This document shows, piece by piece, positions 3,054-7,550 of a stretch of DNA of 35,592 bases. The stretch lies in assembly GCA_026415675.1 (NCBI GenBank), contig JAOAGQ010000032.1:1-35592 (forward strand), in the 5' to 3' direction. Positions within the stretch are counted from its first letter, which is position 1. Every line of letters begins with the position of its first letter. The notes below the pieces were generated by a model, which was given only the letters and a program-made list of their open reading frames with translations, made no database searches and was not told where the DNA came from. The stretch comes from Syntrophorhabdaceae bacterium (GTDB taxonomy: Bacteria; Desulfobacterota; Syntrophorhabdia; Syntrophorhabdales; Syntrophorhabdaceae). Both the position numbers and the translations under genes were made by a program.

Positions 3054-3797
3054 ATGAAGAAAGTCTTATTTTTTGCTTCAATATTAATGGTCTTCACATA
3101 TAGCATATCCTTTGCCTTTCAATACGGTTCCCCTGAACCGACTGCAAAGGCAGGGTCCTTCGCAGTTCAAGGTGGCTACTATTACAATACGAACAAACTT
3201 GAAGGTTTTGGTGATTCCTTCGATATGAAAAGCCATAATGCATATTTTCAGGGCAATTTCGGTATCTTAAAGGATTGGGAGATATACGGTAGGGTTGGAG
3301 CGGCAAACATGAAGGTAAAGGAACTCTTCACCGCCAACGAGGATTTTAACGATAAGGCAAAGTTTTTTGCCTCTGCAGGTTTTAAGGGTGTTTTTTACAG
3401 AATGAACGGGTTTTCCCTTGGTCTCTTCGGTCAGGCGAGTTATTATACGAATTACAAAGATGACAGAACTGTAAAGGCAGCAGGAGGGGTTGGTACCTGG
3501 GATATGAAGTTGAAAAACCTCTGGGATCTCACCGGCGGTATCGGTTTTCAGGCCAAGTTCTCCCCGTACCTTTACCTTTACGGTGGACCCTTTGTATATT
3601 TAACACAGGTCGATGCCTGCTATACAAGCACCGTCCCGGGTCAGTTAGCGGACACCACAAGGACATTAAAAGGAAAGAACAACTTCGGCGGTTTTCTTGG
3701 TCTTGCGATCCCCTTGACAAAAAAGATAAGCCTCAACCTCGAGGGGCAGGTGAAGACAAATATCTCAGGAGGCGCCGCGATCAGTTACGCCTTTTAA
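3054..3797 (+). CDS. Exported outer-membrane beta-barrel protein (OmpA/OmpW-like barrel), function unknown
   Basis: A 247-residue protein with a clear signal peptide (MKK, then a hydrophobic core to about residue 22, ending SFAF). The mature part alternates polar and aromatic residues as beta strands do and ends in ISYAF; a C-terminal Phe is the usual signal for the BAM assembly machinery. It most resembles small 8-10 strand outer-membrane barrels, but I do not recognise a specific family. A strong ribosome-binding site (GGGAGGG) precedes the ATG at 3054. It has its own promoter. Its last eleven codons overlap the end of the convergent metallophosphoesterase gene. Possible roles are a small porin or a surface-stability protein; neither is shown by the sequence. 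Confidence 0.82.
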   Translation: MKKVLFFASILMVFTYSISFAFQYGSPEPTAKAGSFAVQGGYYYNTNKLEGFGDSFDMKSHNAYFQGNFGILKDWEIYGRVGAANMKVKELFTANEDFNDKAKFFASAGFKGVFYRMNGFSLGLFGQASYYTNYKDDRTVKAAGGVGTWDMKLKNLWDLTGGIGFQAKFSPYLYLYGGPFVYLTQVDACYTSTVPGQLADTTRTLKGKNNFGGFLGLAIPLTKKISLNLEGQVKTNISGGAAISYAF

Positions 3798-4998: not shown

Positions 4999-6120
4999 CT
5001 ATTTTAGCATGGCAAGAAAAGTCCCTGCCGCAACGGCAGTACCGATAACACCTGCCACATTGGGACCCATCGCATGCATCAGGAGGAAGTTCTTCGGATC
5101 CGCCTCCTGGCCCACCTTCTGAGATACCCTTGCAGCCATCGGAACAGCGGATACCCCTGCGGAACCTATAAGGGGGTTTATCTTCTCCTTCAGGAAAAGG
5201 TTCATGATTTTCGCAAAGAGTACACCCCCCACGGTGGAGAAGGCAAAGGCAACAAGGCCAAGAAAAAATATAAATAACGGCTTTGGGTTCAAAAATACTT
5301 CCGCCTTCATCGTTGAACCAACGGCGAGACCGAGAACGATTGTGACTATATTTAAAAGGTCGTTCTGGGCGGTCTTCAACAGCCTATCGACAACCTTACA
5401 TTCCCTGAAAAGGTTTCCTATCATGAAAAGCCCCATCAATGGCGCTGCATCAGGGGTAAGCAAACAGATTACAATGGTAGCCACAATAGGAAAGATGATC
5501 TTCTCTGTCTTAGAGACAGACCTTAACTGTTTCATCCTTATTTTTCTCTCTGCCTCTGTTGTTAAGAGCTTCATTATAGGGGGCTGGATTAAGGGAACCA
5601 TCGCCATATATGAGTATGCCGCTACGGCAACCATACCCATCATATGGGGGGCCAGGGCCGTGGCAAGATAGATTGTGGTAGGGCCATCGGCACCACCTAT
5701 TATACCGATTGATGCGGCCTCTTTTATGTTAAAACCAAAAAAAATCGCCCCGAAGAACGACACATATACCCCGAGTTGGGCAGCGGCCCCGAGGAGGAGG
5801 GTTTTTGGATTTGCGATCATCGGTCCGAAATCTGTCAAAGCCCCGATACCGAGAAATATAAGGCACGGTATGATTTCCGTCTCAAGACCGTATTTAAAAA
5901 AGAGATGTATAAGCTGACCCGGCCCTGTAAGGGGTGCGATAGGCATATTCACAAGGAATATACTGAACCCTATGGGAACAAGGAGAAGGGGCTCAAAGTC
6001 TTTCTTGATCGCAAGGTACATAAAAAGAAAACCGATAAACCACATGATTACATATCTGTAGTCGAGATGGGGGATACCCGTTTTTAAAAAAATCTCATAA
6101 AACACATTAAAGATCTCCAT
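4999..6120 (-). CDS. oadB: Sodium-translocating decarboxylase, beta (membrane) subunit
   Basis: A 373-residue polytopic protein of the OadB/GcdB/MmdB family. In the full complex this subunit decarboxylates carboxybiotin and couples the reaction to Na+ export, building a sodium gradient. Family signatures are present: GGADGPT (Asp145 corresponds to the essential membrane Asp), GSAGVSAVP and the C-terminal [11 protein letters not shown] segment. The length is normal. It overlaps the preceding small gamma-like gene by 14 bases, so the two are probably translationally coupled. No alpha (carboxyltransferase) or biotin-carrier gene is in the window, so the acid substrate (oxaloacetate, methylmalonyl-CoA, glutaconyl-CoA or malonate) cannot be chosen from sequence; the symbol stands for the family. 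Confidence 0.93.
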
Positions 6121-6461: not shown

Positions 6462-6555
6462 TACTTTTTTTAATACAATATTTTAGTTACCATTTCTTCC
6501 CCCTTATTACTTTTAAGATATAAAAGGCTAAACTTAAAAACACAGGGTTGTGTAT

Positions 6556-6593
6556 AAAGACGAAGGCGTTCTGATTTAAGAACGTCTTTTTTT
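6556..6593 (+). terminator. First terminator-like hairpin before the porin gene
   Basis: AAAGACG (6556-6562) pairs with CGTCTTT (6583-6589), with an inner TTCT/AGAA stem, and the hairpin runs into a T tract to 6593. An alternative inner stem CGTTCT/AGAACG is also possible. It has no gene upstream on the plus strand to terminate, so it may act within a leader or small RNA. Confidence 0.45.
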
Positions 6594-6598
6594 GTTTT

Positions 6599-6618
6599 AG
6601 ACGATGGGCGTCTTTTTT
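6599..6618 (+). terminator. Second terminator-like hairpin, alternative to the third
   Basis: AGACG (6599-6603), loop ATGGG, CGTCT (6609-6613), then T residues to 6618. Its 3' arm shares bases 6606-6613 with the third hairpin, so the two cannot form together. The arm also echoes the first hairpin, as if duplicated. Confidence 0.4.
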
Positions 6619-6653
6619 GACCACGATATGGTCTTAAAAGGCGCCCTTTTTTT
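6606..6653 (+). terminator. Long terminator hairpin in the porin leader
   Basis: The arms 6606-6622 and 6630-6646 pair over 17 positions with one G-U pair and two T-T mismatches, around a 7-base loop (6623-6629). Seven T residues follow (6647-6653), a good intrinsic terminator. It ends 54 bases before the porin ATG, so it would stop transcription reaching the porin unless an alternative fold forms. Confidence 0.55.
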
Positions 6654-6659
6654 CTCGAT

Positions 6660-6684
6660 TTAACCCAGAGTTACCTCTGGTTAA
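6660..6684 (+). promoter_or_regulatory. Hairpin just upstream of the porin ribosome-binding site
   Basis: TTAA-C-CCAGAG pairs with CTCTGG-TTAA around the loop TTAC: ten base pairs with one bulged C. It stands 11 bases before the AGGAGGT at 6696-6702 and could stabilise the mRNA 5' end or tune translation. Confidence 0.45.
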
Positions 6685-6707
6685 TGATCAAACTCAGGAG
6701 GTGTTTT

Positions 6708-7550
6708 ATGAAAGGTTTTAAAATTTGTATGTTGGTGTATCTGGTGCTATTTGCCCTATGTGGCCCTTCTATCTCCGATAGTGGAGAAAAGGGAAAGGAG
6801 ACGCAGGTATCGGGTTCCGCTTCCCTCGGCACTTATAATCGTTACATATTCAGGGGTTACGAGATCGGTAGAAGCGGGCTCGTGATACAACCTTCTGTCA
6901 ACCTCTCCCTGTCAGGTTTTTCCCTCTCCATATGGGGTAACCTTGACACAAACCAGAGGAATACAAAAACGGCTACATTCGCAAACGAATTCAAAAAGGG
7001 ATGGAACGAAACAGACCTTATAATGAGCTATACCTATGAGATAAAAAAGCTATCCCTGTCAGGGGGTTACATCTACTATGGGACAAGGTATGCGGACGAA
7101 ACGGAAGAGCTATACCTAAGCGCGAGCTACGGAACCCTCTTCAATCCCACCATAACCATATATAGGGACATAACAAACTATAAGGGGACGTATATGAATT
7201 TCAACCTATCCCATTCCTTCCCCATATATAAGGATATCACTATAGATGTGGGAGGTTCTGCCGGTTATTTCATCGGGGAGAGCGATTACTGGAGGACATA
7301 CGACAGTACAACGGCGACGTACACAGGAAAAAAGTACAGGGGCTTTCACGATGGTATGGTAAAGGCAGGGTTTACGATCCCAATTAATAAAAATATCTCT
7401 ATTCAACCTACAATCCAGTACTGGTTCCCCCTTTCATCCGATGCGGAAAGGGAATATCCAACCGTAGGGGATATAAAGGATTCGTATAATCCCAATGGAC
7501 CCGTGAAGTACAATCTCGTTTATGGGGTCGGGTTTGTGTATAAGTTCTGA
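6708..7550 (+). CDS. TorF-family putative porin (outer-membrane barrel)
   Basis: A 280-residue exported protein. I chose the ATG at 6708, not the in-frame ATG at 6684, because AGGAGGT at 6696-6702 is correctly spaced from it and a clean signal peptide (residues 1-22, MKGFKICMLVYLVLFALCG) follows. The mature N-terminus has the family pattern: a strand with YIFRGYEIGRSG, then a strand with LSIWGNLDTN. The rest alternates as beta strands and ends VGFVYKF with a terminal Phe. Members of the family are found in environmental proteobacteria and their substrates are largely undefined. The gene follows a multi-hairpin leader and is convergent with the uracil-DNA glycosylase gene across 28 bases with no terminator. 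Confidence 0.8.
   Translation: MKGFKICMLVYLVLFALCGPSISDSGEKGKETQVSGSASLGTYNRYIFRGYEIGRSGLVIQPSVNLSLSGFSLSIWGNLDTNQRNTKTATFANEFKKGWNETDLIMSYTYEIKKLSLSGGYIYYGTRYADETEELYLSASYGTLFNPTITIYRDITNYKGTYMNFNLSHSFPIYKDITIDVGGSAGYFIGESDYWRTYDSTTATYTGKKYRGFHDGMVKAGFTIPINKNISIQPTIQYWFPLSSDAEREYPTVGDIKDSYNPNGPVKYNLVYGVGFVYKF

Follow-up and report, generated by a model that had tools for sequence, protein, structure and literature searches.

The leader of an outer-membrane porin gene of a Syntrophorhabdaceae bacterium (assembly GCA_026415675.1, contig JAOAGQ010000032.1) is very probably a transcription attenuator with two gates, which are under the control of an ANTAR antiterminator protein. The stretch analysed, here called the window, comprises positions 1 to 35,592 of the forward strand of this contig. 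In the 2012 description of such elements, an ANTAR dual-hexaloop RNA consists of a pair of short stem-loops, each with a loop of six bases and a G at loop position 4 (G4), and one of the two overlaps an intrinsic terminator (PMC3369931). The porin leader contains two modules in series, module 1 composed of hairpins P1 and P2 and terminator T1, and module 2 composed of hairpins P3 and P4 and terminator T2 (Table 1). A previous sequence-only reading of this DNA had proposed an attenuator or a new riboregulator of the porin. Its observation is confirmed, and the attenuator interpretation has conserved synteny, covariation and a common regulon in its favour; newness in kind is not supported, as the parts match the known ANTAR type of antitermination.

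Table 1. Features of the porin leader and associated genes (loop bases in square brackets; window positions unless indicated)
Feature	Position	Strand	Remarks
Promoter-like element GTTACC-N15-TTACTT	6486–6512	+	probably -35/-10
P1 hairpin ACAC[AGGGTT]GTGT	6540–6553	+	4 bp; hexaloop with A1 and G4
P2 hairpin GAC[GAAGGC]GTT	6559–6570	+	3 bp; six-base loop with G at positions 1 and 4; incompatible with T1
Terminator T1	6562–6593	+	11 bp (6562–6572/6579–6589); T tract 6587–6593
P3 hairpin AGAC[GATGGGC]GTCT	6599–6613	+	7-nt loop; excludes T2
Terminator T2	6606–6653	+	11 bp (6606–6616/6636–6646) plus P4; T tract 6647–6653
P4 hairpin GACC[ACGATAT]GGTC	6619–6633	+	lies within T2, with which it can coexist; no G4 here
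Fourth hairpin	6660–6684	+	not supported as a switch element (z -0.54)
Shine-Dalgarno sequence AGGAGG	6696–6701	+	read from sequence
Porin gene (outer-membrane beta-barrel, Gcw_chp/TorF-like)	6708–7550	+	homologs, AlphaFold2 model, Foldseek
Oxaloacetate-decarboxylase beta-like gene	4999–6120	-	upstream neighbour
ECF-sigma-like gene (174 aa; ECF, extracytoplasmic function)	L150 4505–5029 (own genome C52:43004–43525)		in GAF-GAF-ANTAR/nadE operon, outside window

All three terminator-like hairpins recognized in the earlier reading are present, i.e. the 11-bp T1, a 5-bp stem (6599–6603/6609–6613) followed by T residues at 6613–6618, and the 11-bp T2, and the second and third indeed have bases 6609–6613 in common. 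The idea that the hairpins form one mutually exclusive series holds in part. Bases 6568–6570 are common to P2 and T1, and bases 6609–6613 to P3 and T2, which makes the members of each pair mutually exclusive, but T1 and T2 are able to coexist. The suspected duplication (AGACGA...GGCGT) is real and represents the core common to P2 and P3; P1, the diagnostic hairpin, had been missed, and so had P2. For P3, two other forms can be drawn, one with a bulged G6603 and the hexaloop ATGGGC, the other with 5 bp and the loop ATGGG. The region 6538–6660 folds with -47.0 kcal/mol as compared to -25.1 ± 3.3 kcal/mol for 200 shuffled versions, none of which was as good (z -6.65), and the separate modules reach z values of -4.10 and -5.39. 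A simple count of terminators in a 2.7-kb region was mildly high (7 vs 2.8 ± 2.0 expected). Because the folding energies of T1 (-14.5 kcal/mol) and of T2 with P4 (-26.5 kcal/mol) are superior to those of P2 (+0.2 kcal/mol) and of P3 with P4 (-10.3 kcal/mol), respectively, the terminators are predicted to win without a helper. As already stated in the earlier reading there is no plus-strand gene upstream that they could terminate; the leader terminators are not needed for the neighbouring gene since it is located on the minus strand.

The fourth hairpin, previously counted as part of the series, does not exceed chance level (z -0.54 for 6655–6710), and no equivalent was seen in the relatives' leaders inspected. 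In the predicted fold it is replaced by pairing of ACCUCU (6673–6678) with the Shine-Dalgarno region AGGAGGU, a pairing for which no comparative support was found in the same 6655–6710 segment. A leader peptide was considered as well and rejected: there is no ATG between 6513 and 6600, and the 19-codon open reading frame starting with the ATG at 6604, within P3, lacks a ribosome site and does not occur in relatives.

Conservation of the leader was assessed with three covariance models. R1 was built from module 1 of 12 porin leaders, R2 from module 2 of 18 leaders, with the window and locus L020, whose T2 is longer, left out, and R3 as a leave-one-out model from module 1 of 11 relatives with the window excluded. 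R3 recovered window positions 6538–6594 with 47.7 bits (E 2e-9) and the leader of amtB in the same genome, which is part of none of the models, with 49.9 bits; the next matches in the 51.6 kb searched were module 2 of amtB (17.3 bits) and noise (at most 12.7 bits). Matches to R1 were obtained in 26 of the 39 genomes of the family at E<=0.05 and in 28 of 46 genomes of the class at E<=0.001, and matches to R2 in 29 of the 39 family genomes at E<=0.05. A narrow core pattern matched only the porin copy, a looser one also the amtB leader and one other site (L058).

The base pairs are kept in relatives, with compensatory changes. For 33 distinct R1 matches 97.2% of the cells of T1 and P1 are paired (91.0 ± 0.9 in shuffled alignments) with 24 double changes (8.0 ± 2.2), a covariation score that none of 500 shuffles reached, and sliding the pairing partner lowers pairing to 27–58%. 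This alignment was fitted to the structure, and a 12-row MAFFT alignment not fitted in this way agrees. In the 18 relatives used for module 2, the T2/P4 form is 97.4% paired with four double changes vs 0.8 in the control, and the P3/P4 form of relatives is 94.9% paired. Covariation thus supports T1, the P4 nested in T2, and the outer pair of P1; the lower stem of T2 displays one-sided changes only.

Both loops of module 1 carry G4 in all 33 distinct relatives, and the first base is A in 30 of them for P1; for P2 it is A in 26 and G in seven. Positions 2, 3 and 5 of the P1 loop vary (entropy 1.3–1.9 bits) and position 6 is mostly T, while positions 5 and 6 of the P2 loop are constrained because T1 uses them. 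The set of module-2-type sites was reduced from 74 to 41, given that both strands of near-palindromic sites had been counted. All 41 have G4 in the P3 loop, whose first base is A (19 sites), G (15) or T (7). P4 was found in 40 of these sites, its loop has six bases in 28 of the 40, and G4 is present in 21 of the 28. Gate 2 may therefore need P3 only, which would agree with the single-hexaloop minimum proposed in the EutV structure paper (PMC8934654); there, G4 of the loop is described as the sole base-specific contact.

Porin homologs are present in 29 of the 39 family genomes and at 23 loci of named genomes, mostly metagenome-assembled genomes of Syntrophorhabdaceae and other 'delta' lineages. 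Module 1 occurs in 12 porin leaders including that of the window, always together with module 2 except in L041, which has module 1 alone. Nine leaders contain module 2 alone, and all nine have a sigma54-like box (TGGCAY-N5-TTGC) upstream of the module. In 10 of the 12 leaders with module 1 this box is replaced by GTTAMC-N15-(T/G)-ACTT; of the two exceptions, L042 has a promoter-like spacer that is one base longer and the leader of L049 is truncated where its contig stops. Five genomes without ANTAR protein and with a readable leader lack any module, and in these a sigma54-like box starts 30–58 nt before the porin match. An additional small hairpin of varying sequence (by eye; e.g. CCC...GGG or AAGTG...CACTT) is located between promoter and P1 in L011, L015, L017, L019, L020, L045, L049 and L051, and is lacking in the window.

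The genome encodes exactly one ANTAR protein, a GAF-GAF-ANTAR protein of 413 aa (PF03861, 75 bits). Eight of the 11 RNA-contact residues of EutV named in PMC8934654 are identical in comparison with 6wsh (R142, K143, K147, K149, E160, Y164, M172, R175), applying a presumed numbering offset of two with which all 11 agree with the 6wsh chain. Strong R1 matches in this genome are confined to two leaders, that of the porin and that of amtB-glnK, which is preceded by the same tandem arrangement. The ANTAR gene belongs to an operon with the order crp/fnr-like gene, GAF-GAF-ANTAR gene, nadE and ECF-sigma-like gene, and a module-2-type element, GGAC[TTGGGC]GTCC, lies between the ANTAR gene and nadE (L150 2797–2844; R2 E 0.043 per genome). 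In relatives, this operon is often found directly upstream of porin or amtB leaders.

Presence of the modules follows that of the ANTAR protein. Among the 39 family genomes, R2 matches were found in 26 of 28 with and one of 11 without an ANTAR protein, and R1 matches in 24 of 28 and one of 11. At the porin itself a module is present in 21 of 23 ANTAR-containing genomes, at a distance of 34–254 nt from the gene, as compared to one of six genomes lacking ANTAR; the latter exception, G007, is a genome that is 66% complete. In G027, which has ANTAR and no porin module, the porin follows amtB-glnK, and the amtB-glnK leader contains modules. In G019 (L155 4612–4671) and G014 (L166 6603–6654), an R1 module is also located in front of a gene for a NifA-like, GAF domain-containing sigma54 activator, the former protein being classified by domain scan and the latter regarded as alike by eye. 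These targets suggest that the ANTAR regulon may include a nitrogen activator.

Several observations weigh against control of both gates by the ANTAR protein. A at position 1 of both loops is not realized in module 1, where P1 has A and P2 has G, while the own amtB leader has A1 in both loops. In module 2 of the window the loops of P3 and P4 comprise 7 nt instead of six and P4 is devoid of G4. R2 assigns to this module a weak score of 19.1 bits (E 0.0039 over the window), which is second to the 24.2 bits of module 1 and above the best noise (10.0 bits), and the module is not listed in the genome search with R2 at E<=0.05. The P2 and P3 pairs are nearly invariant, so that covariation is silent on both and P2 cannot be tested in this way, and the loop counts are partly circular in that the matches were chosen by models in which G4 is invariant. 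Three EutV contacts are changed in the ANTAR protein (R168 to N, N173 to D, R177 to S). G010 has ANTAR and no module at the porin, G030 and G037 have ANTAR and match neither R1 nor R2, and Fisher p values of 1e-5 to 1e-6 for the association of modules with ANTAR overstate it because the genomes are related.

When compared with the pattern published in 2012, module 1 has two stem-loops of at least 3 bp with six-base loops, G4 in both, a terminator with a T7 tract that is incompatible with P2, and an ANTAR protein with RNA-contact residues encoded in the same genome. Judged from its sequence the leader probably works like, and shares descent with, ANTAR leaders, and strict membership fails at a single base of P2. 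Module 2 of the window is a diverged counterpart of the relatives' module 2, and we do not file it as a member of the ANTAR targets.

This divergence could mean that module 1 alone is the ANTAR switch and that module 2 has decayed here, with a leaky or constitutive T2 that lowers expression, a scenario that we regard as rather unlikely but serious. The low R2 score (aligned sites have 22–72 bits), the 7/7 loop lengths and the P4 loop would fit with it. However, the mutual exclusivity of P3 and T2 is preserved exactly, the bulged form of P3 presents a loop, ATGGGC, with both A1 and G4, and a strong constitutive terminator directly before the porin would silence the gene.

Mutually exclusive terminator and antiterminator hairpins are generic to all kinds of attenuators, and a metabolite riboswitch, a leader-peptide attenuator or an RNA bound by another protein would have them as well. 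Such a mechanism is nevertheless improbable, as the loops obey the ANTAR rule, the modules track ANTAR genes and no Rfam family fits: an Rfam 15 scan of the window gave no match at gathering score, and the best sub-threshold match by bits was PyrR with 27.3 of 54. Similarly, the two serial terminators would yield a stable short RNA, and it is conceivable that a free small RNA ending at 6593 or 6653 titrates the ANTAR protein as do EutX and Rli55, with the porin having its own promoter. We give this idea little credit in view of the proximity of modules and porin in 21 of the 23 ANTAR-containing genomes, and because in all nine leaders with module 2 alone the sigma54-like box is located upstream of the module instead of separating it from the gene. 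The sequence-only reading had envisaged a small RNA with its end at 6653; a short RNA reaching to 6593 or 6653 is possible, but it would simply be the terminated leader.

Taking these data together, we propose the following for ANTAR-controlled attenuation of the porin gene. Transcription would start a few bases upstream of P1 from the promoter at about 6486–6512. By default, RNA polymerase would be released at T1 or, if T1 is passed, at T2, and a short leader RNA would remain. The active GAF-GAF-ANTAR protein, whose signal is probably nitrogen shortage, would bind the hexaloop hairpins P1 and P2 on the nascent RNA, and P2 would keep bases 6568–6570 from T1. At gate 2, P3 with P4 or alone would keep bases 6609–6613 from T2, allowing polymerase to enter the porin gene. 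The same protein would also open the matching amtB-glnK leader and, within the operon that encodes it, the single gate preceding nadE. Porin and ammonium uptake are therefore probably induced together, and the porin appears to belong to the nitrogen-uptake programme of the cell.

The only conserved promoter-like element lies upstream of 6653, and its TTACTT is probably a -10 box because P1 starts as little as 13 nt after it. Four exact sites of GTTACCA-N14-TTACTT exist in the own genome, preceding the porin gene, amtB, the gene for type III glutamine synthetase (GSIII glnA), and a gene beginning MSGIFGFSGRGN that by eye putatively resembles a piece of a glutamine amidotransferase or glutamate synthase. 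In 46 genomes GTTACCR-N14-TTACTT occurs 41 times vs 17 times for a reversed control (matches in 12 genomes), and 23 of the 41 sites are located 11–36 nt in front of an R1 module. The spacing has to be exact for the pattern to be informative, given that the looser pattern GTTACC-N13-17-TACTT was found eight times in the own genome vs seven times for its control.

The product of the ECF-sigma-like gene scores under both curated cut-offs for sigma-70 regions 2 and 4; at E<=1, region 4 was recognized in 11 of 11 and region 2 in 10 of 11 homologs. Strong orthologs (E below 1e-40) are encoded in 27 of the 46 class genomes and in 25 of the 28 ANTAR-containing family genomes. The promoter element is present in 23 of the 27 genomes with and in five of the 19 without this gene (p 1.4e-4; exceptions G007, G026, G038, G042, G045 and G010, G011, G036, G037), as opposed to four of 27 and eight of 19 for the control pattern. 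That the element tracks the ECF-like gene is suggestive only. It is tempting to speculate, though we hold the complete picture to be tentative, that Syntrophorhabdia possess a two-layer nitrogen regulon in which the ECF-like sigma factor of the ANTAR operon reads GTTACC-N15-TTACTT and the ANTAR protein opens two serial gates. Gate 2 would then represent a new topology, a natural single-hexaloop antiterminator in which the terminator is blocked by the earlier of the two hairpins and contains the later one, and relatives would have swapped the promoter for a sigma54 type and kept gate 2. Downstream of the promoter element situated between glnK and the gene for type III glutamine synthetase (own genome, C50:46868 onwards; L175), there is a solitary hairpin with A1 and G4 in its hexaloop, GAGACAC[AATGCC]GTGTCTC, and then TTTT.

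With the leaders of E. faecalis eut (EutV), Klebsiella nasF (NasR) and P. aeruginosa amiE (AmiR) (PMC3369931, PMC8934654), the porin leader shares the hexaloop pair, G4, the overlap with a terminator, an ANTAR protein in the genome and the nitrogen theme. It differs from them by its outer-membrane porin target, two serial gates, a GAF-GAF-ANTAR regulator, a gate 2 in which the first hairpin is the competitor of the terminator and the second is nested inside the terminator, the deviant first base of the P2 loop, and the deviant loop lengths of P3 and P4. In PMC3369931, ANTAR-type RNAs ahead of genes for P-II and ammonium transporters are already described, as are 13 such RNAs distributed over six D. 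acetoxidans transcription units; the presence of several per unit is thus known. The nitrogenase regulons of Pelobacter carbinolicus and Geobacter given there likewise place nitrogen genes of former Deltaproteobacteria under ANTAR control.

Unlike Geobacter-type nitrogenase regulons, the regulon found here has porin, amtB-glnK and nadE as targets and a GAF-GAF sensor. GnfR of Geobacter, reportedly described by Ueki and Lovley in 2010, is said to be a response-regulator ANTAR protein for nitrogenase operons. In the literature outside subscription journals, no report was found of an ANTAR leader in Syntrophorhabdia or in front of a Gcw_chp porin. The novel features are the porin as a target, two gates in series of which the second is nested, and the promoter and sigma factor context. 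Through a common RNA switch, the uncharacterised Gcw_chp/TorF porins become connected with ammonium uptake in anaerobes that are difficult to study genetically, and a connection of ANTAR control with an ECF-like sigma factor can be tested in this regulon. The 2022 EutV structure raised the question of whether one hexaloop suffices for antitermination (PMC8934654). The nine leaders that have only gate 2 behind a sigma54-like box are natural tests of single-hexaloop ANTAR antitermination, and module-2-type sites whose second hairpin has no hexaloop are further tests of such sufficiency.

The porin gene starts behind AGGAGG and not at the mechanical open reading frame start at 6684. Its product resembles Gcw_chp/TorF porins by way of its homologs and its barrel model. 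Gcw_chp (PF09694) matched weakly in 15 of 16 porin homologs at E<=1 (best 7e-6) and TIGR02001 ('TorF family putative porin') in three of 16, but the porin of the window gives no family match on its own and is found with neither of these libraries at E<=1. Its AlphaFold2 model is a beta barrel (predicted local distance difference test score, pLDDT, 83), with which Foldseek retrieved porins (best E 2.7e-6). A second gene for an outer-membrane beta-barrel protein (OMP_b-brl, E 1.6e-6) is located 3 kb upstream of the porin gene on the plus strand, at window positions 3054–3797.
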